Positions 5,352-44,900 of a DNA stretch of 58,683 nucleotides are shown here, piece after piece. The position numbers were made by a program, and so were the translations under genes. The notes under the pieces were generated by a model that worked only from the letters and a program-made list of their open reading frames with translations, was not told the origin of the DNA and did no database searches. The stretch spans positions 1 through 58,683 of IMG/VR virus record IMGVR_UViG_3300027754_002641; one strand, 5' to 3'. Positions within the stretch are counted from its first letter, which is position 1, and the number at the start of each line of letters is the position of its first letter. The DNA comes from a virus.

Positions 5352-5998
5352 AACGCCGGATCATTGCGAAGTTCCTGATCGAGGACGGCAAGCTTGTTAA
5401 GTACAAGCAGTTCACTCAAGCCCGCCGCACGGCTGGTAACGCCGTGTCTACGGCGCGTACATATGAAGACCTACGTGTCGATGAGATGTACTTCTGCGAC
5501 CTTGGGGTGATTGACCCGGCCATGATACGGGCGGTGACGGCAGATGTGTTCACCCCTGTTACGGTGGCCGGGTCGATCCACTCGATGCGGCAGGTAGACG
5601 AACTGATCCAAGACAGCGGCGCGGATAAGGTGGTCATTCTGCACCGCGCTCTGGCCGAGGCGGTTGCCCAAAAATATGGGCAGCAGGCTGTGGTGTGGCC
5701 TATTGACTATCACACGAAGTGTGTAGAAGATGTTCCAGATTGCGCGGGGGAAGTTCTGCTAACGGACATTGATCGCGACGGCATGGGCAAGGGATTCGAC
5801 TTGGACGTATTGAAGAAGCGGTGGGATGTGCCGGTTATCATTGCCGGTGGCTGCGGGAAGCTGGATCACGCTTTGCAGGCATTCAACGCTGGCGCGGACG
5901 CTGTTGCCATTAGCTCCATGTTTTTTTTCACTGACAAGAGTCCGATTAAGCTCAGAAGCTGGCTTGCCAGCGAGGGCGCGAATGTGAGGAACGTGTGA
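5342..5998 (+). CDS. HisF2/AglZ-like amidination partner protein
   Basis: A 218-residue TIM barrel of the HisF family (the histidine enzyme has about 250). Recognisable segments are IEDGKLVK (13-20), AGSIHSMRQVDEL (76-88), LLTDIDRDGMGKGFDLD (139-155) and IIAGGCGKLDHALQAF (166-181). The first catalytic Asp of true HisF (in CLDV) is Leu here (residue 12, in AKFLIEDG), while the second (D122 in WPIDYH) is kept. Loss of the cyclase Asp fits a role in channelling ammonia to the neighbouring amidotransferase rather than histidine synthesis. It overlaps the amidotransferase by 10 bases and the next gene by 4. Confidence 0.85.
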   Translation: MGLKRRIIAKFLIEDGKLVKYKQFTQARRTAGNAVSTARTYEDLRVDEMYFCDLGVIDPAMIRAVTADVFTPVTVAGSIHSMRQVDELIQDSGADKVVILHRALAEAVAQKYGQQAVVWPIDYHTKCVEDVPDCAGEVLLTDIDRDGMGKGFDLDVLKKRWDVPVIIAGGCGKLDHALQAFNAGADAVAISSMFFFTDKSPIKLRSWLASEGANVRNV

Positions 5999-6801: not shown

Positions 6802-6938
6802 TCCCCGCCAAGTTCATCTGCCTGACAGATCACCCGCAGAACGTCCGATGGGGTGAGGGTTGCGGTAGAGAGTGGGTTGGGACTGGTGTGCGCGGTTGTC
6901 CGTTCTGCGGCGCGCTTTGGGTGAAGAGAATCAAATGA
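6798..6938 (+). CDS. 46-residue zinc-ribbon-like protein
   Basis: The frame encodes MIPAKFICLTDHPQNVRWGE and then a cysteine-containing stretch ending in CPFCGALWVKRIK. Cysteines (C8, C22 and the CPFC pair) suggest a small zinc ribbon. The start at 6798 is preferred because it makes an ATGA overlap with the stop before it; its own stop makes another ATGA overlap with the aminotransferase. In-frame ATGs at 6786 and 6792 are alternatives. Role unknown. Confidence 0.55.
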   Translation: MIPAKFICLTDHPQNVRWGEGCGREWVGTGVRGCPFCGALWVKRIK

Positions 6939-8023
6939 CTTTGTGGCCATATCATTCTGAAGACGAAATCAGCGCGGTAGCTGATGTGCTTCGTTCCGGT
7001 AAGACGAACTACTGGTCCGGCCCGAACGGGCAAGCGTTCGAGGCGGAGTTTGCTGCGTATACCGGGGCGAAGCACGGTCTTGCCGTTACCAACGGCACGA
7101 CGGCGCTGGAAGTTGCGCTTCATGGTTTGCGAATTGTGCCGGGGTCTGAGGTGATTGTTCCGTGCCGGACGTTCATGGCGACGGCGAGCGCGGTTATCAC
7201 CGAGGGCGCTCGGGTGATTCTGGCGGACATCGACCCGGCGACATTGAACGTGACGGTCGAGACGCTGGAGGAGCGGCGCACCACGAAGACGGCGGCCATC
7301 ATCGTTGTCCACTACGCCGGGCTTCCGTGTGACATGAAGGCGATTCGCGAGTGGGCGGACTTCCACAAGATCAGGATCATTGAGGACTGCGCCCACGCCC
7401 ACGGCTCGCGCATTGACGGGCAGCATGTCGGCACGTTTGGCGACATTGGGTGTTTCTCGTTCTGCGTTGGGAAGACCATGAGTACGGGCGGCGAGGGCGG
7501 CATGGTGATTACCAACAATGAGTGGGTACATCGTCGGATGGCTGCACGGCGCGATCACGGGCGGTATCAGATGGTCGGGTCCAAGGACATGACGCAATTC
7601 CAGTGGACGGTTGAGGAGTTTGGTACGAATTTGCGTATGACCGAGATGCAATCCGTCATTGGCCGGTTGCAGTTGAAGAAGCTGGACGGCTGGGTGAACC
7701 GGCGCAATCAGATCGCGACGGCGTATGACAATATTCTTGGCGGCATTCCGGTGCCGCATGGTCAGGTGCATGGCCGGTATATGTATATGTCGTTTGTGGA
7801 TGACCGCGATCGCAAGATGATTGCGTTGCAGGGCATGGGTGTGGCAGCGCGATTGGGCGGTTGCCCCAATATCGGCCATGAGGCCGTGTTCAAGAACGGT
7901 GCCGCGAAGTGCCCCCAGGCCGATGAGATTGGTTGTAGAACGTTGTCTCTGCCGGTGTACCCGACAATGACTGACCGCGATGTTGGGTTGGTCCTGAGCG
8001 CGCTGGAGAAGGTATGCGTTTAG
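6935..8023 (+). CDS. legC: DegT/DnrJ/EryC1 PLP-dependent sugar aminotransferase (LegC-like)
   Basis: A 362-residue full-length enzyme. The PLP-binding lysine is K180 in FSFCVGKTMSTGGEGG, and the cofactor-binding acidic motif IIEDCAHAHG lies at 149-157. The N-terminus NGTTALEVAL (53-62) is typical of the family. In the legionaminic pathway such an enzyme adds the C4 amino group to UDP-4-keto-6-deoxy-GlcNAc. The start at 6935 sits in an ATGA overlap with the zinc-ribbon gene and gives an N-terminus (LWPYHSEDEISAVADVL) aligned with the family; a longer frame from 6872 would merely read through that gene. It overlaps the next gene by 10 bases. Confidence 0.85.
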   Translation: MTLWPYHSEDEISAVADVLRSGKTNYWSGPNGQAFEAEFAAYTGAKHGLAVTNGTTALEVALHGLRIVPGSEVIVPCRTFMATASAVITEGARVILADIDPATLNVTVETLEERRTTKTAAIIVVHYAGLPCDMKAIREWADFHKIRIIEDCAHAHGSRIDGQHVGTFGDIGCFSFCVGKTMSTGGEGGMVITNNEWVHRRMAARRDHGRYQMVGSKDMTQFQWTVEEFGTNLRMTEMQSVIGRLQLKKLDGWVNRRNQIATAYDNILGGIPVPHGQVHGRYMYMSFVDDRDRKMIALQGMGVAARLGGCPNIGHEAVFKNGAAKCPQADEIGCRTLSLPVYPTMTDRDVGLVLSALEKVCV

Positions 8024-8487: not shown

Positions 8488-8641
8488 GCACTTAAAAAAG
8501 ATGCGGATCAACATTACGATCACGCCGGATTTGCTAAAGCGGATTGATAAGGCTGTGACGCCGTATGAGCGCAGCCGGTTTATCAACGCGGCCTGCCAAG
8601 AAGCTCTCGATAAGATTGAAGCGGGTAAGGGGTCAAAATGA
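8480..8641 (+). CDS. Ribbon-helix-helix DNA-binding protein
   Basis: A 53-residue frame, MSKHLKKMRINITITPDLLK and so on. It has a basic N-terminus, a short beta strand (RINITI), then two helices (PDLLKRIDKAV and RSRFINAACQEALDKI). This is the canonical RHH (CopG/Arc) layout. It overlaps its neighbours by 8 and 4 bases, so it is co-translated with the sugar enzymes. It may autoregulate the cluster; no toxin partner is next to it. Confidence 0.75.
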   Translation: MSKHLKKMRINITITPDLLKRIDKAVTPYERSRFINAACQEALDKIEAGKGSK

Positions 8642-9339
8642 GCGTTCTGTATCTCATCACAGCACGGGGCGGTTCCAAGGGCGTACCGGGGAAGAACCTG
8701 CGTAAGATCGGCGGGATGTCTCTGGTGGCGTGGAAGGCCAACGCGGCCAAGCAGGTTATCACGGGCAACGACCGGCTGGTTATCTCGACCGAGTGCCCCG
8801 AGATTCAGAAAGAGGCTCTTCGCAATAATGTTGAGGTGCCCTTCACTCGGCCAGCCGAGTTGGCGACCGACACGGCATCCAGCGCGGACGTTATCAAACA
8901 TGCGCTGCGTGCGCTGAACACTTACCACGACACTGTGGTTTTGCTGGAGCCGAGCGCGCCGTTTACGACGCCGGAACATTTTATAACGGCGCTGACGATG
9001 AAAGAGGCGAAGGACGCGCATTTGATTGTTGGGATGAAGCACACGGAGCCGCATACGACTTTTATCGGTGAGCAGCCCAATGATGATTTTGTAACGCCCA
9101 TCATTGTTAAGATGGACCGCGTTGGCCGCAATCTGCGCCGCCAGGATTTGCGTCAGGAGTGGACGATGAACGGCGCGTTGTACGTATTCGACACGGATAT
9201 GTTTATGGAAACCGGCAGCATTTACGGCGGAGCGCGCAATTACGGTTTGCTTATGGACCGCTGGAATAGTATTGAGATTGATACTCTGTACGACTTGGAA
9301 ATGGCTGAGTACGCCCACGGCAAGGGGTACGTGTTTTGA
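8638..9339 (+). CDS. legF: CMP-nonulosonate cytidylyltransferase (NeuA/LegF/PseF family)
   Basis: A 233-residue protein with the N-terminal CTP-binding signature ARGGSKGVPGKNLR at residues 9-22, followed by WKANAAKQV and a conserved LLEPSAPF strand (about 102-109). Length and order match bacterial CMP-sialic/legionaminic acid synthetases without an extra C-terminal domain. It activates the free nonulosonic acid with CTP to the CMP-sugar, the donor for transfer. Stop and start overlap the synthase gene (TTGA). Confidence 0.85.
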   Translation: MSVLYLITARGGSKGVPGKNLRKIGGMSLVAWKANAAKQVITGNDRLVISTECPEIQKEALRNNVEVPFTRPAELATDTASSADVIKHALRALNTYHDTVVLLEPSAPFTTPEHFITALTMKEAKDAHLIVGMKHTEPHTTFIGEQPNDDFVTPIIVKMDRVGRNLRRQDLRQEWTMNGALYVFDTDMFMETGSIYGGARNYGLLMDRWNSIEIDTLYDLEMAEYAHGKGYVF

Positions 9340-10028
9340 CGTTTATCATTGCGGAAGCTGGGATAAATCATTGCGGGTCTTTGGACCGCGCATTGAAGAT
9401 GGTCGAAGTCGCGGCGGACGCGGACGCTGACGCGGTTAAATTCCAGTCATTCACGGCGTCGAAGCTTGGGTATGACGCTGATGTCGTGAAGTGGCTCAGT
9501 GGCATGGAGTTGTCCAAGGACGACCACTACAAGCTTAAGGCCAAAGCAGAGCGTTGTGGGATTCAGTTTATGTCCACGCCGTTCAGCGAGGAGTGGGTGG
9601 ACTTCCTTGTTGAGATTGGCGTGAAGCGGCTGAAGATTTCATCCGGCAAGGCCAAGGAGCCAGCGTTCGTTGATTACGCCAGAAGGACCGGCCTGCCGTT
9701 AATCATCAGCACCGGCATGATTAATTACGCGCAGATGTTGGCTGTGACATGCCCAGAAGATTGGGTTCTCTATTGCGTGTCGAAATATCCGACGCCTCTC
9801 AACAAGGTTGATTTCAGGAACTTGTCCAGGCTTGAGAAGCTGTTCCCCATATGGGGGTTCTCGGATCATACGGTTGGGCACGGCGCTGCGGTTATTGCAG
9901 CCGCTTCCGGCGCGAAGGTGATCGAGAAGCACTTCACGATGGACCGGAAATTATTCGGGCCGGATCAAGTATGCAGCCTTGAGCCGGATGAACTGAAGCA
10001 GATGATTACGGAGATACGATCGGTATGA
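9336..10028 (+). CDS. legI: NeuB/LegI-type nonulosonic acid synthase, lacking the SAF domain
   Basis: A 230-residue TIM barrel. Family segments are IAEAGINHCGS (E7), AVKFQSF (K35), FMSTPFS, LKISSGK (K100), YPTPLNKVDF, GFSDHTVGH and EKHFTMDRKLFGPDQ, ending with SLEPDEL. It condenses PEP with a 6-deoxy-2,4-diacetamido hexose. Two oddities stand out: the usual C-terminal SAF (antifreeze-like) domain is absent (the family usually has about 340 residues), and the residue after SSG, Glu in well-studied NeuB, is Lys105. The start is TTG at 9336, overlapping the previous stop. Confidence 0.8.
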   Translation: MTFIIAEAGINHCGSLDRALKMVEVAADADADAVKFQSFTASKLGYDADVVKWLSGMELSKDDHYKLKAKAERCGIQFMSTPFSEEWVDFLVEIGVKRLKISSGKAKEPAFVDYARRTGLPLIISTGMINYAQMLAVTCPEDWVLYCVSKYPTPLNKVDFRNLSRLEKLFPIWGFSDHTVGHGAAVIAAASGAKVIEKHFTMDRKLFGPDQVCSLEPDELKQMITEIRSV

Positions 10029-10942
10029 TCCGCGACATTGACCTGAGAGATTTGCTGCCGCGCAGTCATGTCGTTCGCGATATGACGACGGTTGCTGAAA
10101 TGTTGAGGGGCAAGCGTGTTGTCGTGACCGGCGCGGGCGGGTCGATCGGGTCTGAGTTATCGCGACAGATCAGCCGGTTTTATCCGAAGGAATTGGTGCT
10201 GGTCGATAACTGCGAGTTCAATCTGTATTCGATCAGCGAGCAGATACCGTCCGCGACCGCGATTTATGCAGACATCAGGGATTCAAATTCCGTTTGCTTG
10301 TTCATTGGGAACAAAGCCGACCAGATTGTTTTCCATGCGGCTGCGATGAAGCATGTGCCGCTGGTAGAGGAAAACCAGGCAGAGGCCGTAAGGACTAACA
10401 TCTTAGGCACAACGAATGTTGCCGTGGCGTGTTTGAAGGTCAACACCCACCGGCTCGTTATGATTTCAACGGACAAGGCTGTTAAGCCGACTAGCTTTAT
10501 GGGCAAGACCAAGCGCGGGGCGGAGAACATTTGCCGGGAGGCTGGGTATACAGTTGTCCGGTTCGGCAATGTGCTCGGCTCTTCCGGCTCGGTTGTCCCG
10601 CTGTTTGAACGCCAGATTAAGAATGGTGGCCCGGTTACGGTGACGCATGAGGATGTTGAGCGGTACTTCATGTCGATTGATGAGGCTGTCAGTCTTGTGC
10701 TTCATGCGGCGACAGGTGAGCCGTCCACGTATGTTTTGGACATGGGCCAGCCGGTCAAGATCATGGACTTAGCGAAGGACATGATTCGCCTTGCGGGCAA
10801 GATGCCGGGGTCTGAGGTCGAGATAAAGATTGTGGGGATGCGCCCCGGTGAACGTCTTCAGGAGGAGTTGTTCTACGACTCAGAAGTTGTCGAGAAGTTC
10901 TCCGTGGACGGCATATGGAGGGTGAGAGATGACGCAGCGTAA
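10025..10942 (+). CDS. legB: UDP-GlcNAc 4,6-dehydratase (CapD/PseB/LegB-type SDR)
   Basis: A 305-residue extended SDR. The NAD(P)-binding loop TGAGGSIGS is at 35-43; HAAAMKHVPLVE at 104-115; the Ser-Met-Lys catalytic arrangement STDKAVKPTSFMGKTKR at 148-164 (Met in place of Tyr, as in PseB/LegB/FlaA1). The segment GMRPGERLQEELF near the C-terminus is typical of this subfamily. It catalyses the first committed step. No membrane domain is attached, so this is the soluble type. 5-inverting (Pse) versus retaining (Leg) chemistry cannot be told from sequence alone; the 2-epimerase downstream favours Leg. Confidence 0.85.
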   Translation: MIRDIDLRDLLPRSHVVRDMTTVAEMLRGKRVVVTGAGGSIGSELSRQISRFYPKELVLVDNCEFNLYSISEQIPSATAIYADIRDSNSVCLFIGNKADQIVFHAAAMKHVPLVEENQAEAVRTNILGTTNVAVACLKVNTHRLVMISTDKAVKPTSFMGKTKRGAENICREAGYTVVRFGNVLGSSGSVVPLFERQIKNGGPVTVTHEDVERYFMSIDEAVSLVLHAATGEPSTYVLDMGQPVKIMDLAKDMIRLAGKMPGSEVEIKIVGMRPGERLQEELFYDSEVVEKFSVDGIWRVRDDAA

Positions 10943-11546: not shown

Positions 11547-11836
11547 CGATGAACGAATCGGAAATTTTGGATAAGATTGACGACACAAAATCCAGAAAGA
11601 GAGTTGCCGAGCGCGAGCTTAGTGTTTTTGACGAATCCATTATTACCGCCAACATTTATTCTGATCGTCTGACTGTCGCGAAGTTGAGAAGCGGGTGGAA
11701 AAGAGTCAAAGCTGCAAAAAAGCTAAGAGAGCCGTTTCAAAAAAATGTTGAGCAAATCAGCGTTGATCTTTTTTGTCTAAGGGCTGAGTTGAACCGGGTC
11801 ACTAACCTGAAGAAATATTTAAGATCGCGGAAATGA
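11543..11836 (+). CDS. Small coiled-coil-like protein in the sugar cluster
   Basis: A 97-residue, highly charged, Lys/Arg-rich and almost entirely helical protein. The start at 11543 is chosen for its ATGA overlap with the SDR stop; another ATGA overlap leads to the acyltransferase. It has no cysteine pairs or membrane span. Base composition is more A-rich than in the flanking enzymes, as in the RHH gene at 13386, which hints at a separate origin. Function unknown. Confidence 0.6.
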   Translation: MTMNESEILDKIDDTKSRKRVAERELSVFDESIITANIYSDRLTVAKLRSGWKRVKAAKKLREPFQKNVEQISVDLFCLRAELNRVTNLKKYLRSRK

Positions 11837-12387
11837 CTGATATTGCCGTAGCCATCATTGGGAGCGGTAGCCATGCGAAATTATTGCAGAATTTTTTCGA
11901 TGGTAAGGCCGTTCTTTGCGCGCCGTCTGCGGTGCCGAAGGACACCTTTGTCTGTATCGGTATCGGGAATGTACCGGAAATCGGTAAAAGCGATTTGAAG
12001 ACAAGGCGTACCATTTATCAAAAGTTTGAAAACCGGATGCTTGGTGTTCAATATAAACATTCGGTAATTCTTGGGAACGTCCACGACAGTTGCCAGATCA
12101 TGCCGGGTGCGATCGTTAACCACGGTGCGAATGTGCATGAAAACGTTATTCTCAACACCGGCTCGATTGTCGAGCATGACTGCTCGATCGGCGCTCATTG
12201 CCACATCGCCCCCGGTGCGGTTGTGCTTGGCGGTGTCCGCATTGGGGAAGAGACTCATGTCGGCGCGAACAGCGTTATTTTGCCGGGGATGAGAATCGGT
12301 CGCGGGTGTGTTATCGGGGCTGGCGCGGTTGTGACTGATGATATGGATGATTACCAAACTTGGATCGGGCATAAGCTCTATGAGTGA
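11833..12387 (+). CDS. legH: NeuD/PglD-type sugar N- or O-acetyltransferase (LegH candidate)
   Basis: A 184-residue protein with an N-terminal nucleotide-sugar-binding part (AIIGSGSHAKLLQNF, 8-22) and a C-terminal left-handed beta helix. The catalytic His is H115 in SIVEHDCSIG, followed by hexapeptide repeats such as HIAPGAVVLGGVRIG and NSVILPGMRIG. PglD-family enzymes acetylate the 4-amino group of UDP-4-amino-6-deoxy-GlcNAc, exactly the reaction needed after the aminotransferase. The N-terminal half is slightly short compared with PglD. Confidence 0.75.
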   Translation: MTDIAVAIIGSGSHAKLLQNFFDGKAVLCAPSAVPKDTFVCIGIGNVPEIGKSDLKTRRTIYQKFENRMLGVQYKHSVILGNVHDSCQIMPGAIVNHGANVHENVILNTGSIVEHDCSIGAHCHIAPGAVVLGGVRIGEETHVGANSVILPGMRIGRGCVIGAGAVVTDDMDDYQTWIGHKLYE

Positions 12388-13399
12388 TTTCAGCCAAGTC
12401 GTTGTCGTATCCCCCACCCGCGCTGAAGACGGGCCGCTGAAGTCTGTGATCGCGGAGATGCCGGGATGCTCCGTGGCCCAGTTTGATTCAGAGGGTATGT
12501 CGCCCGATGTCGCTGTGGCCCGTGCTATTACGTACTTTACGGTTGTCTTCAAATCTAACAACCCGAAGCTGGTTGTTGTGCTAGGCGACCGCTATGAGAC
12601 ACATGCGGCGGCGCTCGCGGCGCACTTTTTGCGGATACCGATTGGGCATATTCATGGGGGCGAGACGACGACGGGGGCGTTTGACGATGCGTTGCGGCAT
12701 GGGATTACGCATATGGCGGGAAACGACGGGCTGCACTTTGTGGCGCACCATCCTGCGTGGCTGCGCGTCATGGACATGGTGCCGTTTGCCAAGAATGTTC
12801 ATACGTTCGGTGCCCCCGGCCTCGACACCATCGCGCAAGGGAGCGCAACGCGGGGCCAGAAGGGATGGCGAAAAATTATGGGAGTCAAGACGATTGTGGT
12901 GAGCTATTACTCCGAAACATGCTCGCCCGATTGCGGTCTGGCTAACCTTGAATCAATGCTAAAGGCATTGGTTAAATATACAGGCGATCACGCGATCTTC
13001 TTTAGCCGGGTGAATAACGACCCCGGCTCGGATGCTATTGAGGACGGCATCAATGCTTTTATCAAAACGTATCCAACGTCCGCTTCTTGGATTTCTCCCA
13101 ACACCCGCGAGCAGTACCTGCATCTGCTGGAGCACGCCGTTTTTGCAATTGGCAACTCTAGCTCGCTGGTGATCGAGTGCCCGTGGATTGGGGTGCCGAG
13201 TGTGTTGGTGGGGCTACGCCAGGACGGTAGGCCGATGGCGAACTCTGTGTTTCAATCAAACTATGGCAGCGTCACTGAAACCGAAGCCGCAATTAACAGT
13301 GCGATGGTATTCACCAAGGCGTTTGGCCCCATCTACAAAGGCGGCTCTGCCCACAAGATCGCCGGAGTCATCAGGGGGTGGCTAGATGAGAAAGCCTGA
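12380..13399 (+). CDS. legG: Hydrolysing UDP-sugar 2-epimerase (NeuC/LegG family)
   Basis: A 339-residue protein. The N-terminus VVVVSPTRAEDGPLKSVI, GDRYE (69-73), IPIGHIHGGETTTGAFDDA (86-104), RHGITHMA, and C-terminal IGNSSSLVIECP with GLRQDGR are the NeuC/LegG signatures. It inverts C2 and releases UDP to give free 2,4-diacetamido-2,4,6-trideoxymannose, the substrate of the NeuB-type synthase. A NeuC-type rather than PseG-type enzyme is the strongest pointer to a legionaminic rather than pseudaminic product. The start at 12380 overlaps the previous stop; the stop lies inside the next small gene. Confidence 0.85.
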   Translation: MSDFSQVVVVSPTRAEDGPLKSVIAEMPGCSVAQFDSEGMSPDVAVARAITYFTVVFKSNNPKLVVVLGDRYETHAAALAAHFLRIPIGHIHGGETTTGAFDDALRHGITHMAGNDGLHFVAHHPAWLRVMDMVPFAKNVHTFGAPGLDTIAQGSATRGQKGWRKIMGVKTIVVSYYSETCSPDCGLANLESMLKALVKYTGDHAIFFSRVNNDPGSDAIEDGINAFIKTYPTSASWISPNTREQYLHLLEHAVFAIGNSSSLVIECPWIGVPSVLVGLRQDGRPMANSVFQSNYGSVTETEAAINSAMVFTKAFGPIYKGGSAHKIAGVIRGWLDEKA

Positions 13400-13642: not shown

Positions 13643-14131
13643 ATGCTGTCGATCCCGGTTGATTTAGAAAAAGACGCTCTGTTTGTAAAAATCTTTTTGC
13701 AAACTGGCGATGCCTTGGATGCGTGTAAGCGCGCTGGATTTATTGTGCATGGGTACAACGATCGCATCGTTGCTGAATACCTACTCGACCGGCCCGACAT
13801 CCAAGTTGCGCTGCGGGCGGCTAAAGAATCAGAAACCCGCAAGACGGCTCCGGTAGACATAACTCGCGAAAGCATCATTTCTGATTTGGACGTTATCCAT
13901 CAGTCCGCGATGATCGAGAAAGACTATACGCCAGCGATCGCCGCTAAGAAATTGCAGGCAACTTTGATGGGGATGGTTCAGGAGAACATACAGATTACGC
14001 ATAATCTGGATGTGACCCGTATGACTGACGCGCAATTGGTACAGATGATTGCTGCCAAATCGCGGCAGGAAGACCTGAAAATGATTGATGTGACCCCGGT
14101 TGGTCTGGGGCAGATTAGTGTCTCAAAGTGA
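13643..14131 (+). CDS. terS: Terminase small subunit (probable)
   Basis: A 162-residue helical protein placed directly before the terminase large subunit, overlapping it by 14 bases. N-terminal residues about 13-60 (FVKIFLQTGDALDACKRAGF, then a second helix) look like the DNA-binding region of small terminases (TG.A..A...AG). The middle contains AAKKLQATLMGMVQENI, a likely oligomerisation helix. The start at 13643 has GGAAAG about 5 bases upstream. The assignment rests mainly on position and size. Confidence 0.7.
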   Translation: MLSIPVDLEKDALFVKIFLQTGDALDACKRAGFIVHGYNDRIVAEYLLDRPDIQVALRAAKESETRKTAPVDITRESIISDLDVIHQSAMIEKDYTPAIAAKKLQATLMGMVQENIQITHNLDVTRMTDAQLVQMIAAKSRQEDLKMIDVTPVGLGQISVSK

Positions 14132-15662
14132 GCTAACTTTAGACCAACTGGCCGCAGAGCTTTTGCGGCGGCGTCATGCGCGAGAGAACTTCTCTGATTT
14201 CATGGCGTACATGCACGGCATAGCTCCGCCGCGTCATATGAAGTTCCTGTGCGATAAGCTGCAAGAGAAGATGGAGCGCAAGGGCGACCGTATGTTGGTC
14301 TGCTTCCCGCCGGGGCATGGAAAATCTACGGTTTCGTCGCTTTATTATCCGGCGTTCTATTTGTCCAAGAACCCGACGCACAACATCATTGTCGTCAGCC
14401 ATACGGAATCGTTCGCTGAACAGTGGGGCCGTAAGGTCCGCAATCTGATGATGTCGGACGAGTACAAGCTTTTGTTCCCAGAGATTGAGGTGTCGGACGA
14501 CAGCCGCTCCGCTGGCCGGTGGGACCTGAAGCAAGGCGGCTCGTACTACGCGACGGGCGTGGGCGGCACGGTGACTGGGCGAAGGGCAGACTGCGTAATC
14601 TGCGACGATTTGCTCAAAGGTATTGACGACGCAGAATCAAAAACTGTCCGCGATAATATGTGGGACTGGTGGGGCTCGGACTTATCAACCCGCCTGAAAC
14701 CTAGCGGCATCATGGTTGTGATTGGGACGCGGTGGCATCTTGATGACATCATTGGCCGGATCATGGCTGCTGAAAAGCAGAAGGGCGGCGACAAGTGGGA
14801 GAAGGTTGTTCTGCCCGCTTTGGCGAAAGAGAAAGACCCGTTAGGCCGCAAGCCCGGTGAGGCCCTTTGGCCGGAGTGGGAGAACGAGAAGGCCCTAGCC
14901 CGTAGACGGGCACAGCCGTCCATGACGGCCCGCCAGTGGGAAAGCCTGTACCAGCAAAGCCCGGTGCTTGAGTCCGGTAACGTCATCAAGCGCGAGTGGA
15001 TCAAGATTTGGAATCAGAAAGACCCGCCGAAGTGCAGCTTCATTGTCCAGAGTTGGGACACGGCGATCACGGCGAAGAACAAAAGCGCGTTTTCGGTCTG
15101 CCTGACCTTCGGTGTGTTTAAGGAAGACAAGACCGATTTGCCGTCCGTGATCCTGTTGTCCCGTTGGCGGGGGCGTGTGGATTACCCAGAACTGCGTAAG
15201 ATGGCCCAACGGCTCGCGATTAACTATCTGGACGACAACATGGAAGTTCCCATGTCTGGGAACCGTAAAAAGCCGCCGGATATGATCCTGATTGAAGCTA
15301 AGGCTACGGGCGAGCCGTTGATTGCTGACCTTAACCGGGCGGGGATTTCTGCAACCCGGTTTAATCCGAATAAGCACGGGGATAAGAACGCCCGCTTGAT
15401 GCTGGTTACGGACATATTTGAGAACGGTCGGTTTTATGCCCCCGGCCTGCCGCCGATGTACACGCTTCCAAGGCGGTGGGCGGAGGAATATATTAATTCC
15501 CTGCTTGCCTTCCCAGCGTCCGACTCAAGGGACGATGCCGACGCGACCAGCCAGGCTATTATTCGGATGAAGACCAGTGGCTGGATTAAAAACAGTTTAG
15601 ATGTTATTGATGAAGCACCATTTCGCTACACTGAGCGCGCATCTGGGGCACTTTACGGGTAA
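14118..15662 (+). CDS. terL: Terminase large subunit
   Basis: A 514-residue DNA packaging motor. The Walker A motif CFPPGHGKST is at about 62-71; a Walker B acidic strand ADCVICDDLL lies near residue 160; the motor is followed by a C-terminal nuclease with the first acidic residue in QSWDTAI and a late DDADATSQAI motif. It cuts and translocates DNA at the portal. I chose GTG at 14118, with GGGG about 8 bases upstream, over TTG at 14100. Confidence 0.92.
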   Translation: MSQSELTLDQLAAELLRRRHARENFSDFMAYMHGIAPPRHMKFLCDKLQEKMERKGDRMLVCFPPGHGKSTVSSLYYPAFYLSKNPTHNIIVVSHTESFAEQWGRKVRNLMMSDEYKLLFPEIEVSDDSRSAGRWDLKQGGSYYATGVGGTVTGRRADCVICDDLLKGIDDAESKTVRDNMWDWWGSDLSTRLKPSGIMVVIGTRWHLDDIIGRIMAAEKQKGGDKWEKVVLPALAKEKDPLGRKPGEALWPEWENEKALARRRAQPSMTARQWESLYQQSPVLESGNVIKREWIKIWNQKDPPKCSFIVQSWDTAITAKNKSAFSVCLTFGVFKEDKTDLPSVILLSRWRGRVDYPELRKMAQRLAINYLDDNMEVPMSGNRKKPPDMILIEAKATGEPLIADLNRAGISATRFNPNKHGDKNARLMLVTDIFENGRFYAPGLPPMYTLPRRWAEEYINSLLAFPASDSRDDADATSQAIIRMKTSGWIKNSLDVIDEAPFRYTERASGALYG

Positions 15663-22491: not shown

Positions 22492-23397
22492 ATGACCATT
22501 AATACCAGTCAAATCCAGCAGCTTCTCCGCCCCGGCTTGGCAGAAGTGTTCGGTGATTATCCGATGTACCCGGCTGAATATACCGAAATCTTCAGCACCC
22601 ATACTTCGGACAAAGCAGTCGAAATCGAAGTCGAAATGAAGCTGCTCGGGCTTGCGGCCACTAAGGCCGAAGGCGCTCCGACGCAGTTCCAAGACATGGG
22701 ACAGCGCGTAATCAGCACCTACTACCATCGCTACACCAGCGTTGGCTTTATGATTACTCGCCAGGCGATGAAGGATAACCTTTACGAGTCGCAGTTCCCG
22801 CAGCAGGCGCAGTCTCTCCGTAACTCGATGCTGCAAAGCAAAGAAGTTAACGGCGCGTCTGTTATCAACAACGGCTACTCGGCATCGTTCCCCGGCGGCG
22901 ATGGTGTGGCGCTCTTCTCGACCGCTCACCCGATCGACACCGGCACGTTCGCGAATACGCCGTCCGTTCAGGTGGACCTGAATGAATCGTCTCTGCAAGA
23001 TGCGATCGTAACCATCTCGCAGTTCCGCGATCAGGCTGGCCTCATCACGATGACCAAGCCGACCAAGTTGATCGTTCCGCCGCAGCTTCAGTTCACGGCG
23101 GATCGTATCCTGCACTCGCAGTTCCGCACTGGTACTGCGAACAACGACATTAACGCCGTGTACAATATCGGCGCTGTGCCGCAGGGCTATCGGGTCAATC
23201 ACTTCCTGACCGATACCAACGCCTGGACCTTGATGACCGACGCCCCGAATGGTCTGAAGCACTATGTCCGTGAAGCTCTCGAAACGGATGTTTTCACTGA
23301 CTTCACCAGCGATAACCTGCTCGCGAAGGCCATCGAACGGTACTCGTTCGGCTGGTCTAACTCGCGTGGCGCTTATGGTAGCTCTGGCGCTACCTAA
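22492..23397 (+). CDS. Major capsid protein
   Basis: A 301-residue protein with features of Mu gpT/HK97-type capsid proteins: an N-terminal MTINTSQIQQLLRPGLAEVF helix, then YPMYPAEYTEIF, a GALLFSTAHP-like segment (GVALFSTAHPIDTGTFAN) typical of the family, and a C-terminal ..AIERYSFGWSN strand. AGGAG precedes the ATG. A strong terminator follows only about 30 bases after the stop, as expected for the most highly expressed gene. Confidence 0.85.
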   Translation: MTINTSQIQQLLRPGLAEVFGDYPMYPAEYTEIFSTHTSDKAVEIEVEMKLLGLAATKAEGAPTQFQDMGQRVISTYYHRYTSVGFMITRQAMKDNLYESQFPQQAQSLRNSMLQSKEVNGASVINNGYSASFPGGDGVALFSTAHPIDTGTFANTPSVQVDLNESSLQDAIVTISQFRDQAGLITMTKPTKLIVPPQLQFTADRILHSQFRTGTANNDINAVYNIGAVPQGYRVNHFLTDTNAWTLMTDAPNGLKHYVREALETDVFTDFTSDNLLAKAIERYSFGWSNSRGAYGSSGAT

Positions 23398-23484: not shown

Positions 23485-24240
23485 ATGACTTCTTTTTTCG
23501 ATAACGTTAAGATTGGTCGGGCGGCTTATAACCGCAATCTTACGCCTCCGACAGGCTATGCCGAGGACGAGATTTACGGCATCCCGCTGACGCAGACTTA
23601 CGTTTACCAAGCTGGCACGGCATCCACCTCCCTGGCGAGCGGCGTGTTTTATGCGTCTTCCGCTGTGGCGGGAACGCTGACCGGCACGGGCGTGTTGGTA
23701 AGTGGTGGCGTTGCCACCTTTGACGTTCCCCGTAGCGTGCAGATCACGGCTTCCAGCAACATGGCAACGGTCACGTTTACCATCCGTGGTACGGATGCGT
23801 ATGGTGCGCCGCTTACGTGGGCTGGTGTCGGCCCGACCGGCAATACCCTTGGCGCTGCCGGTTCTTATGTCGTCAGCCTCTCCGCGTTCAAAACCATGAC
23901 TACGGCGTCATGCGATGGCGCGGCGACCGGGGCGCTGACCATTGGTACTTCGGATACTTTCGGAATGCCGTTCCGTATTCCCAATGTCGGTTATGGCATG
24001 GGGGTTCACATCAACGGCGAGAGTGCTACCGTCCCGGCTACGTGGACGGCTGGCTTGGCTGCCACGGGCGTTGCGACGGCCACCACAGCCGATGTCAGGG
24101 GCACTGTGGCCCTGGCTACAACTGTTCTAAGCAACGGCTCTCGTTATTTTAGCTTTGAGTTCATTACTCCAAATACCGGCATTGCGGCTGGCGCTGATAC
24201 GAAGGAAAATAGCTACGGCGTTACGCCGTTTACGTCGTAA
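23485..24240 (+). CDS. Structural protein, beta-rich
   Basis: A 251-residue protein, Thr/Ala/Gly-rich after an N-terminal MTSFFDNVKIGRAAYNRNL segment. Its composition resembles capsid spike or minor structural proteins. It lies between two terminators, so it is probably expressed as its own step. I do not recognise a family. Confidence 0.6.
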   Translation: MTSFFDNVKIGRAAYNRNLTPPTGYAEDEIYGIPLTQTYVYQAGTASTSLASGVFYASSAVAGTLTGTGVLVSGGVATFDVPRSVQITASSNMATVTFTIRGTDAYGAPLTWAGVGPTGNTLGAAGSYVVSLSAFKTMTTASCDGAATGALTIGTSDTFGMPFRIPNVGYGMGVHINGESATVPATWTAGLAATGVATATTADVRGTVALATTVLSNGSRYFSFEFITPNTGIAAGADTKENSYGVTPFTS

Positions 24241-24283: not shown

Positions 24284-24311
24284 CTGGCGGCTACTAGGCA
24301 AGGATATAATT

Positions 24312-25202
24312 ATGGAACAATCCGCTCAGTCGATGCCCACGCCTATTTCGCTCATGCCTAATCGTAAGGCCGTGAACATTATCGCTATGGGTTCGAGCCG
24401 AAATGACTTCTTCCAGGCGCAGCTTATGGAAAGCCGCCCCGATATTCTTCAGAACGCCGAGATTTGGTGCATCAACTACATGGGCGGGCAGATTCGCTGC
24501 GACCGCATTATTCACGTTGATCCCGTCCACGCGTTTCTTGGGCACCCGATTGTGCGCGATATGTGTGAATACGCGTTGAAGGACAACATCCCGTTCTACA
24601 CCTCGCACCCGCACCCGAAGTACAATAACCATGTGGTGTATCCGTTCGCCCGTGTTTCGGCTGCTTTCGGCGGCATCACATATTTCAACACCAGTGTGTC
24701 GTATGCGATCGCGCTGGCGCTGGCTGACGGTTTCACAGAAATCGGCCTGTTTGGCTGCGACTTCTCGTACCCAGATGTCCATATGGCTGAATCTGGCCGC
24801 GCTTGTTGCGAGTTTTATATCGGCATCGGCACTCAGCGCGGCGTTCGGTTTGCCGTCGCTCAAGGCTCGACGCTGATGGATATGTACAACGGCCAACAGC
24901 CCTACGGCTGGTTCTCCAACCCGAATCTGCCGCCCGCCAATGGCGGTAAGCTGATGAACGCCCGTGAAATCTTGGCGCATGAAGAACGTGTGAAAAATCC
25001 GCCGAAGTTTTCTGACCTCATCCAAACCGTTAAAATGTCCACGCCTATTCAGCAGGTCAGTCCGATTGCGGTCGGCTCTGGCGGCGAAAACGCTATTTAC
25101 ACGAATTTGCTGGGCGGGCCGCTCCCACTGAAAAATGGCCAAGACTCTTTAGGAGTACAATATGCGCCCCACGGTAATCTCGTTCCCGGCCCCATCAGTT
25201 AA
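24312..25202 (+). CDS. Maf/DUF115-like Rossmann-fold protein (possible nonulosonate transferase)
   Basis: A 296-residue protein. A nucleotide-binding-like N-terminus VNIIAMGSSRNDFF (21-34), then EIWCINYMG and IIHVDPVHAF (67-75). A second block, YFNTSVSYAIALALADGFTE followed by IGLFGCDFSY (124-153), resembles the MptE/DUF115 (MAF) domain, where a Gly-rich helix precedes G.D..Y. Maf proteins transfer legionaminic or pseudaminic acid to flagellin. Homologues in other phages are annotated only as morphogenetic. Its place among structural genes, in a genome with a CMP-nonulosonate pathway, makes a sugar transferase role attractive but unproven. It overlaps the next gene by 41 bases. Confidence 0.5.
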   Translation: MEQSAQSMPTPISLMPNRKAVNIIAMGSSRNDFFQAQLMESRPDILQNAEIWCINYMGGQIRCDRIIHVDPVHAFLGHPIVRDMCEYALKDNIPFYTSHPHPKYNNHVVYPFARVSAAFGGITYFNTSVSYAIALALADGFTEIGLFGCDFSYPDVHMAESGRACCEFYIGIGTQRGVRFAVAQGSTLMDMYNGQQPYGWFSNPNLPPANGGKLMNAREILAHEERVKNPPKFSDLIQTVKMSTPIQQVSPIAVGSGGENAIYTNLLGGPLPLKNGQDSLGVQYAPHGNLVPGPIS

Positions 25203-25818
25203 CGCGGTCTGCGCGACACAGACCACGACTGCTGCGAACCAGGCGCTTACGCTCAACGGGAGCCTGTCTAATATTGCACTGAGTAACGGCCAGGGGTATT
25301 CGCCCCTGGTTGTTTTCCCAGGCATCCAACGTGCGATCAGTGTAACGAGCACTGGCAATATCAGTACGTCTACTATTTCGATTACTGGGTATGACACCAG
25401 AAGCGTGCTCTTCACGACCACGCTTACTGGTCCCAACAACACGACCGTCAACACCACGACAGAGTTTAACAAGATCACAGCGGTCAGCGTTGGCACGCTT
25501 GCCAGCAGCACGTTTACTGTTGGTACGAGCGCCACCGGGTCTAGCACATGGGTTCAGGGTGATTCGTTTATCAGCCCGTTTGCTGTGACTGTTACGGTAG
25601 AAACCGTGACTTCTGCCCCGATCACAATTCAAGATACGCCGAATGATGTTCAGGCTGCTGCTCCGTCGATTATCTTTAATCACTCGACCTTGGCAACGGT
25701 GACTGTTTCGGCTGAGTCCAACTACGCCTTCCCGGCGCGTTTCATGCGGTTTATCTGCACCGCTAGTGCGACTGCTACGGGGAACTCGCAAGTGACCTTT
25801 ATCCAGGCTGGGTGGTAG
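25162..25818 (+). CDS. Beta-rich structural protein
   Basis: A 218-residue, Thr/Ser/Val-rich protein (MRPTVISFPAPSVNAVCATQ...) with many short beta repeats and no catalytic motif. The start at 25162 has AGGAG 6 bases upstream and lies inside the end of the previous gene in another frame. Probably a minor capsid or appendage component. Confidence 0.6.
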   Translation: MRPTVISFPAPSVNAVCATQTTTAANQALTLNGSLSNIALSNGQGYSPLVVFPGIQRAISVTSTGNISTSTISITGYDTRSVLFTTTLTGPNNTTVNTTTEFNKITAVSVGTLASSTFTVGTSATGSSTWVQGDSFISPFAVTVTVETVTSAPITIQDTPNDVQAAAPSIIFNHSTLATVTVSAESNYAFPARFMRFICTASATATGNSQVTFIQAGW

Positions 25819-38921: not shown

Positions 38922-41900
38922 ATGCCGCCGTTTGATGTATCTGGTGCAAAAGCCGCTGGGTATAGCGATGATGAAATCATCGGCCACCTTGTCAAGACTC
39001 GCAAATTTGATGCCGAGGGCGCAAAGAAAGCTGGATATTCCAGCCAAGAAATACTCAATCATTTACTAACCATACCAACTGAGCCTGAAATTGGCACCGG
39101 ACAAGGGCGCGTCAGTAAATCACTAGAGCGCGGGTATGAGGGCTTAAAGTCTACAGGCTATGGCCTTGCTGCGTTGGGGGCCGATGTCGTTGGTGCCGAA
39201 GATTTCGGCACATCAATGATTGAGAAGTACAAACAAACAGAAGCCAACGCCCAGGCACTGGCCTCTGATGTCCCGACATACAAAGACATCCACAGTTTTG
39301 GTGACGCCGGTAAATACGCAGTCGATAATCTATTTGAAAACCTGCCAATGCTTATACCGTCACTTGTCAGCGGCGGCGTCGGCGCTGCCGTGGCGCGTAA
39401 GGGCGCTGAAAAATTAGTAGCCGGTATGGTTGCTAAGAAAATGGGTGAGGGATTAAGCAAAGAGGCCGCAGAAAAAGCGGCTGCGTCTATGGTTGCGAAG
39501 CGCGTAGCTGTTGGCTCTGCCGCTGGCGCATATGTTCCGTCAGCCGGTATGGAAATCGGTTCTATCTATAATGACATCGTAGACGAAACTGGGGAGCGCG
39601 GCGGCAAGGGTGTGGCTGCTGCGGTAGCTGGTGGGTTGGTTGCCGGTGCCCTTGATGTTGTTGCTGAAGTGCCAATCTTGGGGAAGATGTTTGGCGAAAG
39701 CTCCAAGATCATTGCCGGTGGCCTTATCAAAAGGCTCGGTGTAACAGGCGCTAAACAGTTCCTGCTTGAGGGCGGCACTGAAGGTCTTCAAACAGTTGTC
39801 GAGCAATTGTCTGCCCAAGCTGGCGGATCAAACAAGGCGCTCGACTGGGATGAAGTTATAGACGCTACCTTAAAGGGCGGGATATTTGGCGTTGGAATTG
39901 GTTCCGGCACCGAGTTGCTGTTTGGTCATGGCGCAAAGCAGACCACAGATAATAACCCCCCCGGCCCGCTCGGTTCTAACATTGGCGAAGACATTGCAGA
40001 CCCGACAAAGATCGGCTTCAAGCCTGTTGGCACTACGATCGGGATTAAGGACGACCAGGGTAGTGTAAGGGTCGCCACCATCGACAGCGTTAAGGACGTT
40101 GGCGGTGTGCCCTTTGCTCAATTCACTTACCATGATGATACAAACCCCGCGCTTCCCGCTGAGAGCGGCAACGCCAGGGTCGAAGACCTTCTGCCTAGCA
40201 TGGTCGATACGAATATCGCCCCGCTGAAGCCGCAGACTGACGTGAATGCGGAAGCACCGCCGGTTGACCTTGAGCAGATGGACGTTGAGCGTACCTCAGA
40301 GAGACAGGTAGAACGCCAGAAGCCCAAGCCCGTAGACACGGCGACGACTCTGCCTATTACGGGGCTGGATAACGTAGCTCCGTTGAGGGAAAACGCTGAC
40401 AAAAACGAGATGGACGCTCTGAGAATTATAGGGCGCTCCGGCAAAGACATAACGCCGCAAAATCAAAAGCTGGTCGATAACCTCAAAGCCCTGGCTGCTC
40501 AACAGCGCGAGCAAGCGCGGCTGCTTGAGGAGAAGTACGGACACCAGCCGGTAGATACCACGGGTGTGCCCGCCGCCGTGCGGCCCGTAGCGCCGGTTAC
40601 AGCGCCAACCGATTTGCTGCAAACGGAAGCGAACAAAGGCCAGGGCGCTCCTGACGTTACGGTCCCTGGCAGAACGTATGAAAAGCACGGGAAGCTGCCC
40701 CCCCTTGGCCCGATCCCGTTATCTACCTCGCCAATCACGCTGCATAAATACATACGTGAGCAAGGCGGCATCAGCCCCGACAGCCCGAACATCGATGACA
40801 TTGGCGGCGCGGCGCTACTTAAAAGGCTCGGGCTTCTTGCGCCAAAGGGAAGCGGCATAACGGTTTACGAAGCCACCAGCCGGGCGGAGCAAGAAGGCTA
40901 CCTCGGTCCAGTAAAAGAGATCGGCGAGAATGAAGCCTACACTAAGCAAGATATAAACGCGCTTGCTGCTGTTTTGCCTAATGCAAGGCAAACAATCAGC
41001 AATATGTACTCGCAAGAAGGCGCTATTAATGCAAGAGCGGCGGAGATGGACCGTCGCAAAACCATGAAAGACATTTTTGGGGTCGAAGGTTCTAAAAACC
41101 GCGCAGATACCATTCAGTACCGTGAGGCCCTGCATACGGACTTTGGTATTCCTATTACTGAAACCAAAAAACTAAACGACTCTCAAGTTAAAGAGAGACA
41201 TGAGCAGCTATGGCGTGAGAGGGAAGTAGCTAGGCAGCTAGATGAATCTCAGCGCGCTAGAAAGTTGGAAGAAGAGCGCCGTGCTGCTGAGAACGCACGT
41301 TCCGAAAAGCCGAATACGGAAACCGACGATACGCTCACTGATGAGCAGATCGCAGCCAGCCCTAATGGGACTGATGTGCTGGATATTGGGTCGGGAGCGG
41401 CTAAAGAATCTGCGACAAGAATTGGTAAAGTTGAGGATGTAAATCCTAATGATTTGGTTTTTTTAGAAAACGAACAAAATAATACAGAAGATATTAAAAA
41501 AATGTTCCCAAAGGGGGAGGGTTATTATCCGATTGTCTTAAAGGAAGATGAAGACGGGAGCCTTTCAATTTTAGACGGCCATAACCGCGCAGCGGTAGCG
41601 ATTGAACGTGGAGACAATATACCATCTGTCAGGATCACACAGAAAGAGTACGACTTTCTTAAATCAAAAGGATTTGACGACCAGGAGATTAGCTACGCTG
41701 CGCTGACCGACGCTAGACAAGACGACGCCGCCAGTGGCATCGCACAAAAGTTTCGGGGTGCTGATGTCCACGGGCCGGGGGGGGAAGCTGCTAATTTGTT
41801 AGACGACCTAAGATTGATGGAGAAGCTGCCCAAGCAGAAGCGTTTTGCAGAGCCTATAAGGGCTCCAGAAGAGCCTGGGCAAATGACCCTTGAAGAGCAA

Positions 41901-44900
41901 CATGCTGAAGCCAACAGGCTGTTCAACGATCTGCAATCCCAAATCCCGCAGGACAGGTCTGCGGCTCGCCGTGACGGTGGTGAAGATGCCGCTCATCAGT
42001 ACAGCACACCAGCGAATAACGATCGCAAGCGTGTAGGTAACGTCCGTGAGCTTATTGCAAAACGAGTGCTTCCCTATGTCGGGACGACGTTCGATCGCGC
42101 GCAGCGCGCTGTGCTAAATAAGATTGACGCCTGGGTGTCGCGCGTTGTGCCGGATGTGCCCGTGTATGTCGTGTCGAAGGCTATCGCCAAGCAGCATCTG
42201 GGGAACGTCGGAGGCGGTTGGTATGATCCAGTAGAACACGCGATATATTTGGTTCGCGGAAATTACGATTCCAAGACGCTGTTGCATGAAGCCGTTCATG
42301 CCGCGCTGGTGCGCGAGCTACATAATAATCCTGCGCTCTTCAATTACACCGAACGTCTGCGCCAGTTTGTAGAGTCGAGCGACACGAACAAAGATTTCTA
42401 TGGGCTAAAGGATGTCCATGAATTTCTGGCAGAAGCAATGTCTAACCGGAAATTTCAGAAATACTTGGCAGAAATGCCTGCGCCGAAATGGGCTATCACA
42501 AATTTGATGACGCCAGGCGTAAGCGGCGAGCACCGCTCTATGTGGGATGCGCTGGTCGGTGCTGTCGCGAAGTTCGTGCGAAACCTGCAATCTGGCGGCG
42601 GTGACATCCACAGTGTCCTAGATGCGGTCATGCGTGTTCCTGAAGCCATCGACGCCATTGTTGAAGGCAGAAACGAATACGGCGAGATGATTGATGGTCG
42701 GCAGATATTGGCAGAGCGACCGTCAGGAGTTGAAGACCCGTTCCGTGATCTTGGTGCAGGAGAATACGAACGTGCCGTTGCGAGCGGCGCTCTGGCTGAC
42801 GCGAAGGCACCCCTTGCCGATCGTCGCACAGGAACGCTCCGCAACAAAGACGGCTCAGAAAAAACGACAGCACAGGTCAGCAACACGGTTAACCGGGTCA
42901 ACCGGATAACGGGTGGGAAGCCGAAGTTGGCGTCTGAGACAATCTCCCGGCCCGCACTGTGGTTCGCCATGATGCAGGGAGTGGGTCGCAAGTTCCCGGT
43001 GATTGCTGAGTTTCAGCACTGGCTACAGTCTGAAGCGGAGAGAGAAACGGTTCTCGTTAAGGAAGGCGAGAAGACGATCGAGCGTATGACTCAGCTAGAT
43101 TACAAGCCTCGCAAGATGATCGAGGCTGTGATGGAGTTTGCGCGTCTTACCAACACCAACGTTGTCCCCAGAAATGGGCGCATTACCGTTGTTATGCCGG
43201 AGAACTATCAAGGTTCGCTCGGTCGCCCCGGCGAAGTCTTCATGCTTGATAAGAACCAATCTGAAATCTTCATGGGGATGAAGGACTACTTCAAAAAACG
43301 TTGGGAGGATCACGGCAAAGCCATCGCTAAAAATCTGGAGTACGAGGGCGCGTGGAACGCTGGCGCGATCCAATCCGCGCTGTCAGAAGCTCAAGCGCAG
43401 GGCAACAACCAGCGCGCTAAAAAACTAGAGTTCGTTAACGCCATCTTTGAAGACGCCAAAAGGCGCGAGAACTACGTGCCGTTTAGCCGGTCGGGTGACG
43501 AGGGCTTTAAGGTTAAAGACACGACAACCGGCAAAGTTGAATACTTTGAAATGGTTAACACAAAGAATGTGTGGGGTGGACTCACAGGTTCTAACGTTAA
43601 GAAGAACGAAGTCATCACGAATAAGTTCAAGGAACTCAGAAAAAAGTTTCCTGACGACAAACGCTACGATATTACAAACGATCCAATCGTATCAAAAGAC
43701 ATTGAGGAGCTTGACGTTTCTCTCATCGAGAAGCTGTTAGCGGCTACGAATATTGCGGACAAGAAAGACCGCAATAGCGCGATGAACAATATTCTGAACG
43801 CGCTCAAGGGCGTTGGATTGGGGGCGAAAGACGTTAAGAACGCTATGCGAGAAACCTTCATTGACCAAGTTAATAAGGCGCAGCGCGCCGGGTTCACTAA
43901 GGAATCTCACAACACTCCTGGGTATTCGACAGACTTCCTGCAATCAATCATTGATTACAACCGCGCATCTGCAAGCGTTGTGTCAGGCGTTGAACATTCC
44001 AGAGTAAAGAAAGATGCCTACAATCGCACACAGGATGCTCTCAATGTTCCTGAAAACATCAGGAACTATGCAAATCGCATCAACAATTATCTCGACAGCG
44101 ACGAGAAGTTGATCGGGCAACTAAAGCAATACGGATTCTGGTCTAGCCTGTGGGGGTCCGCGTCTTCGGCGCTTGTGAACCTTACGCAAACACCGACCGT
44201 CACAGCGGCGCAGATCGCTGGCTGGGCTGGGGTGCCCGCCGCTGGACGAGTGATGAGGCTTTCGTTGGGTGTGGCGCGGGCTTTGTCGTTTGATAAACGC
44301 AAAGGCATTTACCTCAACCCGAATAAAATTAAGTTCAACAGCCCGCAAGAGCGGGTCGCGTTTATGGACGCGCATAACAGAGGGCGCATCAACCCCACTG
44401 TTACACAAGACCTACACGGCTCGTCACCTGATAACTGGCAGGAGGTGACTAAGAAGATCGGCAACGACGCATCTTCCAAAATACAAAAAGTTCTTTGGAA
44501 TATATTCGACGTTGGAACGTCGGCGTTTAACGGCGCTGAACAGGTAAACCGTGCGACCGCATGGCTGGCTGCGTATAGAGAAGCGCAAGCGCCGGGTGCA
44601 ATAGCTAAGTTTAAGAAGATGTACGCCAATGATGCGCGGGTTGCTCTTATAGAAAAGCAATCCGGCTTAACGCCCGCCGCTATTGCTGACTTCTTTGTGA
44701 ACGAAACCCAGTTCATTGGCGGCAAGATCGACCGGCCAGAAGTCCTGCGCGGTGTCGGCGGTATTGCGTTCCAGTTCAAGCAATACCCGATGAACTATCT
44801 GCGTATTCTCAAAAGCAACATGACCAGCGCGGGACCGGAAGGCAAGGTTGCTGGGACTATGATGCTGATGGCGCTTGTCGCATTTGGTGGCGCATTTGGC

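Follow-up and report, generated by a model that had tools for sequence, protein, structure and literature searches.

The window studied here comprises the 58,683 bases of one IMG/VR virus record. At positions 24312-25202 of its + strand it carries an open reading frame (ORF) with an ATG start and 296 codons for amino acids, exactly where an earlier note on this DNA had placed it. The protein includes the features described in that note: a GSS loop (residues 27-29), a HVDP strand (68-71) and the segment AIALALADGFTEIGLFGCDF (132-151). The features of the window which bear on its function are:

4215-5351, + strand: WbuX-type N-acetyl sugar amidotransferase (TIGR03573 E=2.5e-97, over cut-off)
5342-5998, + strand: HisF/WbuZ-like partner of the amidotransferase (PF00977 E=6e-27; TIGR03572 E=3e-42)
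6872-8023, + strand: sugar aminotransferase, PseC/LegC type (PF01041 E=1e-94; TIGR03588 E=7e-71)
8638-9339, + strand: CMP-nonulosonate synthetase, PseF-like (PF02348 E=1.2e-13; TIGR03584 E=1.1e-30)
9336-10028, + strand: NeuB-type nonulosonate synthase (PF03102 E=9.6e-59; TIGR03569 E=2e-69)
10025-10942, + strand: UDP-sugar 4,6-dehydratase, PseB/FnlA-like (PF02719 E=9e-97; TIGR03589 E=4e-46)
11833-12387, + strand: NeuD-type sugar acetyltransferase (TIGR03570 E=1.1e-37)
12338-13399, + strand: NeuC-type UDP-GlcNAc 2-epimerase (PF02350 E=4e-42; TIGR03568 E=4e-61)
14100-15662, + strand: terminase large subunit (PF03237 E=2e-14; PF17289)
22492-23397, + strand: major head protein (match to the PHROG of that name, 371, with E=6e-13)
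23485-24240, + strand: Ser/Thr-rich protein of 251 aa directly upstream, presumed virion protein and candidate acceptor (position after the head gene, Ser/Thr content)
24312-25202, + strand: protein with Maf/GT42 fold, proposed CMP-nonulosonate transferase (ORF, conservation, model and fold matches, GT42 profile matches)
25162-25818, + strand: Ser/Thr-rich protein of 218 aa directly downstream, candidate acceptor (position, Ser/Thr content)

Relatives of the 24312-25202 protein were found at 25 viral loci in one viral scan, with identities of 69-100%. In a comparison with five of them, the third codon position takes most substitutions in this frame; against locus L003 there are 52, 39 and 129 changes at codon positions 1, 2 and 3. 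The gene is considered to be coding because substitutions concentrate in the third position and because its place is kept: related contigs spanning all three genes retain the order of the 23485-24240 homologue, the proposed transferase and the 25162-25818 homologue. An antisense ORF (24294-25142) was ruled out as a gene since the changes sit in the third position of the + frame.

The predicted genes between 4.2 and 13.4 kb make up a nearly complete CMP-nonulosonate pathway upstream of 24312-25202. Their NCBIfam matches, except that of WbuX, lie below the cut-offs and the names given denote types, not exact enzymes. Judged by what is established for these gene families, the set would make a legionaminic-type sugar that may bear an acetamidino group. 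The NeuB gene is short (230 aa): its match to TIGR03569 extends only to position 254 of 329 and the product apparently lacks the C-terminal SAF domain. In most clade relatives the NeuB match likewise stops at a TGA. No other glycosyltransferase was found among the approximately 20 ORFs of the window scanned with Pfam, in agreement with the earlier note.

The same note had placed the gene among structural genes, and it does lie in the head module, beside two Ser/Thr-rich proteins. Ser and Thr together account for 24.7% of the residues of the 23485-24240 protein and 31.2% of those of the 25162-25818 protein. The two are related (hhalign 95%, E=2e-8), and by profile comparison they are paralogues; neither matches a Pfam or PHROG family. 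The start of 25162-25818 overlaps the end of the proposed transferase gene by 41 nt and its ATG is preceded by an AGGAG motif. Coordinates give an identical 41-nt overlap in L003, L010 and L011. In one subclade (L018, L020-L023), the proposed transferase is shortened to 255 aa and is devoid of the variable C-terminal tail, and its gene does not overlap the downstream gene. Late in the structural block of the window, a single ORF of 2271 aa (38922-45737) possibly encodes a very large virion protein.

Searched as a single sequence, the 24312-25202 protein has no match in the PDB, PHROGs or NCBIfam. Its sole Pfam trace is PF01973 (MptE-like), with 15 bits and E=0.022, which misses the curated cut-off of 34.6 bits. 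This family is weakly matched by 10 of 62 family members (best E=0.0039). The GT42 model PF06002 has no match in the window's protein and is matched by two of the 62 (best E=0.0034). With a profile of all 62 members searched against the PDB, the eight best matches are all GT42 (E 0.009-0.07) and are followed by noise; with a smaller profile, 9 of 9 matches are GT42. The best are CstI/CstII-type enzymes, weak matches with E 0.009 at best. Influenza haemagglutinin entries were dismissed as noise, their match being confined to the helical C-terminal part of the 62-member profile. Aligned directly with hhalign, the family profile scores 78-81% (E ~1e-5) with CstII (a sequence identical to PDB chain 1ro7_A), 17% with Maf-type proteins taken from the genomes of bacteria in a single phylum, and 0.2% with a NeuB control. 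By profile, therefore, the family is nearer the GT42 sialyltransferases than Maf (78% vs 17%). The likeness to GT42 does not extend beyond a single motif some 40 residues long, in which T127-S128 is in register with T131-S132 of CstII, and G148-C-D150-F151 with G152-I-D-F. We take CstII 131-132 (T-S) and 152-155 (G-x-D-F) to be the conserved donor-site motif of GT42. Overall, the profiles weakly favour transferases over pyrophosphokinases.

An AlphaFold model built from an alignment of 12 close relatives, which held too little diversity, reached a pLDDT of 43. A second model, based on the 62-member alignment including distant relatives, has a mean pLDDT of 70.9 with core blocks mostly at 85-97, and predicts one folded domain (core approximately residues 18-192) with a low-confidence tail from about residue 240. 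In structure comparison with VIA-align, its top match is an archaeal 6-hydroxymethylpterin diphosphokinase (HPPK, 8sd5; Z 12.7). This is followed by CstI (Z 11.7/11.5), Maf (5mu5; Z 11.6, rmsd 3.3 over 164 residues, model residues 5-189), SteA (Z 10.9), CstII (Z 10.1-10.7), the Pasteurella sialyltransferase 9c08 (Z 10.2), thiamine pyrophosphokinases (Z 8-10.3) and mammalian GT29 sialyltransferases (Z ~8). Foldseek places HPPK together with CstI/CstII in its top ranks (E 0.002-0.01). The resemblance to the Maf/DUF115 (MptE-like) domain claimed in the earlier note thus leaves only a trace (PF01973) with single sequences but is clear with the model from the diverse alignment, and the comparison with Maf reveals the Maf catalytic fold. 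Maf proteins are composed of an N-terminal Rossmann-like, a central and a C-terminal helical domain, and the likeness of their catalytic domain to Cst-II has already been published (PMC11339370). The modelled protein lacks this three-domain architecture, and the proposal that it is a Maf does not stand, given also the missed PF01973 cut-off and the nearer GT42 profile. The predicted fold alone covers two chemistries, those of pyrophosphokinases and of CMP-sugar transferases. It gives no verdict between them because a pterin pyrophosphokinase heads the structural matches and thiamine pyrophosphokinases also score as high as Z 10.

The putative active site differs within the family. Outside the window's clade, H at column 70 and E156 never vary and Y157 and Q160 hardly do; at columns 70, 156, 157 and 160 the clade has D, V, H and E. 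With four family-conserved residues replaced, the putative active site of the clade is a modified one. The clade (69-76% identity) strictly conserves a set of its own: D70-P71, T127-S128, D150, H157, E160 and R163. The DP after a beta strand (D70-P71) resembles the 'IDPH' of Maf sequences. In GT42, His188 is catalytic (PMC4202792). H157, invariant in the clade and mostly Tyr in the rest of the family, is aligned by the profile with CstII Y162; it would fall on CstII H188 if the alignment were anchored on the following helix.

A wider search led to a large phage family of 186 loci (one scan), which neither Pfam nor PHROGs recognises. A viral scan with the Microcystis phage relative as sole query gave no match. 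In our genome collection, bacterial assemblies provide only three family matches. One of these is a likely prophage in an Aurantimonas assembly; this genome has a single NeuB, which shares a contig with the family gene and is located about 4 kb upstream of it. A search of 299 genomes for cellular GT42 proteins gave two weak places, the better of which was judged spurious on reading. A Microcystis phage homologue (L027 4650-5453, PP496355.1) is annotated 'type 11 methyltransferase', a name that is probably wrong as its sequence places it in this transferase-like family. Two family copies can occur on one phage contig (the contigs of L069 and L288), and in L059 a second copy is found directly downstream of the first.

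The family is linked to nonulosonate synthesis, as the earlier note had supposed for the window. Within the window's clade, NeuB is present in 6/6 contigs reaching the region, and homologues of NeuC, NeuD and SDR are present in two more contigs, which end within the cluster. Outside the clade we compared 26 family-bearing contigs (20-94 kb) with 37 random viral contigs (20-92 kb) drawn by a 14-mer pattern. NeuB is found in 13/26 of the former and 0/37 of the latter (Fisher p=1e-6), or 10/19 vs 0/37 after clustering at 70% identity (Fisher p=2.6e-6), and the 37 random contigs are equally devoid of the transferase-like family. A CMP-sugar synthetase occurs in 15/26 family-bearing contigs, and a gene for a different sugar, dTDP-sugar isomerase, in 0/26. 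In 13/13 cases NeuB precedes the family gene by 3.5-26 kb and is encoded by the same strand, the arrangement also found in the window. Reciprocally, the family is present in 11/48 NeuB-selected contigs vs 0/37 random ones (p=0.002); these 48 are a biased sample, having been ranked by their likeness to a single NeuB, and do not include two positive controls. The family gene of L083 overlaps a CMP-sugar synthetase gene, and NeuB is paired with WbuX and HisF homologues, as in the window, in L102, L110 and L143. In these three, the WbuX-like amidotransferase, the HisF-like gene and an ORF which we read from its sequence as methyltransferase-like sit between NeuB and the family gene; the gene set suggests a shared amidinated sugar module.

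This linkage is incomplete. About half of the sampled relatives outside the clade lack NeuB, and neither NeuB nor CMP-sugar synthetase was found in a complete circular 41-kb Microcystis phage that includes a family member. Of the refuting conditions named in the earlier note, those examined mostly turned out in its favour: the Maf fold is there in the model, and the association with NeuB stands for about half of these relatives. Some homologues do occur in phages without the sugar genes. Such members may use a host CMP-sugar or another donor, or may contradict the transferase idea. Among phage isolates, NeuB was detectable with the window's protein in 3 of 50,697 records.

Placement in the head module is also found in unrelated phages, where we named the neighbours by reading their sequences. 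In L083 the family gene comes after a set that we take, by size and order, for portal, protease and head protein; in L088 and L124 it lies between head protein and connectors, and in L102 and L110 it precedes a terminase-like gene. Across phages its upstream neighbour is small (median 194 aa), with a Ser+Thr content of 21.7% vs 11.6-17.6% at other positions. It often ends in Ser/Thr runs, such as LSTSTSTSTST in L071 and FTTSTST in L110 (Ser/Thr in the last ten residues, upstream vs other neighbours: MWU p=5e-11, a value inflated by shared ancestry). To judge from their sequences, these tails look like O-glycosylation acceptors. Three upstream neighbours match PHROG 5707, of unknown function. 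The two flanking proteins of the window are Ser/Thr-rich throughout and have no terminal Ser/Thr runs; a common origin with the Ser/Thr-tailed neighbours was tested and not seen.

Our preferred reading, to which we give a probability of about 0.6, is that the 24312-25202 product is a CMP-nonulosonate transferase which O-glycosylates a virion protein of a freshwater phage. The cluster at 4.2-13.4 kb would supply a CMP-activated nonulosonic acid, probably of an amidinated legionaminic type. The enzyme, a nonulosonate transferase consisting of one domain with the fold common to Maf and the GT42 sialyltransferases, would be made late, as its position among head genes makes probable, and would move the sugar by inverting transfer as in GT42. 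Ser/Thr residues of a virion protein would be the acceptor, most likely in either or both of the Ser/Thr-rich products of the flanking genes, and the phage particle would end up coated with a charged sugar. A broader proposal, which we hold tentatively and at somewhat less than even odds, is that this large phage-specific family forms the centre of a widespread system for O-glycosylating virions, in which self-made CMP-nonulosonic acid is transferred to a small, Ser/Thr-rich head protein encoded by the adjacent gene and often tailed by STSTST, and the virus particles come to bear sialic-acid-like sugars.

The sugar could instead be added during infection to LPS or some other glycan of the host cell surface, where it might, for instance, prevent superinfection or mask receptors. 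GT42 enzymes do use lipooligosaccharide as acceptor (PMC4202792), and phage-encoded enzymes altering host nonulosonate-containing glycans are known (PMC6586298). We nevertheless judge this destination unlikely, given that unrelated phages have the family gene within their head module, near head, connector or terminase genes and a Ser/Thr-rich protein, that it overlaps the downstream gene by 41 nt in the window, and that no gene for membrane-linked glycan assembly was seen among the ORFs scanned.

Nor need the protein act on sugars at all. Its highest structural score, the Z values of thiamine pyrophosphokinases and its MptE-like Pfam trace would all suit a small-molecule pyrophosphokinase, similar to MptE/HPPK or thiamine pyrophosphokinase, or another nucleotide-dependent enzyme of this fold. 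The strong and specific linkage to NeuB and CMP-sugar synthetase in unrelated phages, together with sequence profiles in which only GT42 rises above noise among solved structures, makes this rather improbable. The replaced residues of the window's clade and the location of its gene among structural genes might also indicate a catalytically dead derivative, now serving as a virion or assembly protein. This is the least probable of the alternatives: the clade has its own strictly conserved set, including a D70-P71 reminiscent of Maf, and the sugar genes are kept in every clade contig that reaches them.

If the protein is indeed a transferase, it would be neither a bona fide Maf nor a GT42 member, though it would work like both; it is not filed under either because the PF01973 and PF06002 cut-offs are missed and the Maf architecture is absent. 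With GT42 (CstI and CstII of Campylobacter jejuni, 9c08 of Pasteurella multocida) it shares the predicted fold (Z 10-11.7), the T-S and G-x-D-F motif in register, the best PDB profile matches and an expected CMP-nonulosonate donor. It differs in its identity of 14-18%, below recognition by PF06002, in having no clear counterpart of His188, and in its proposed acceptor, a virion protein rather than lipooligosaccharide. With Maf it shares the central catalytic fold and the DP after a beta strand, as well as the expected donor, a putative Ser/Thr acceptor and linkage with nonulosonate genes. In contrast to the three-domain Maf, it has a single domain and is encoded in a phage head module, with no flagellin. 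Archaeal MptE/HPPK has the same fold, but the phage protein keeps company with genes for nonulosonate, not pterin, synthesis (no pterin gene was seen among the annotated ORFs of the window), and its profile match to this group is not above noise. The mycobacteriophages Che8 and Rita provide a precedent for phage-encoded glycosyltransferases and glycans on capsid proteins (cited in PMC11256854), and the related Maravista has putative glycosyltransferases near the 3' end of its genome; self-made nonulosonic acid with a GT42/Maf-like enzyme in the head module is not described there. Our search of the open literature brought up no account of a phage whose nonulosonate synthesis is coupled to its virion.

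Glycosylation of phage particles has been recorded in few systems. The finding that relatives of this protein travel with sugar genes in many uncultured phages suggests that virions coated with a sialic-acid-like sugar are overlooked. If the proposal is correct, many uncultured phages would carry a negatively charged, sialic-acid-like coat, with possible effects on how they adsorb, diffuse and are recognised by immune systems, and on their stability. It would also provide a function for a family whose members at present go under the labels hypothetical, 'methyltransferase' or 'MptE-like', and a testable triple of genes: a NeuB cluster, a transferase and a Ser/Thr-rich acceptor.
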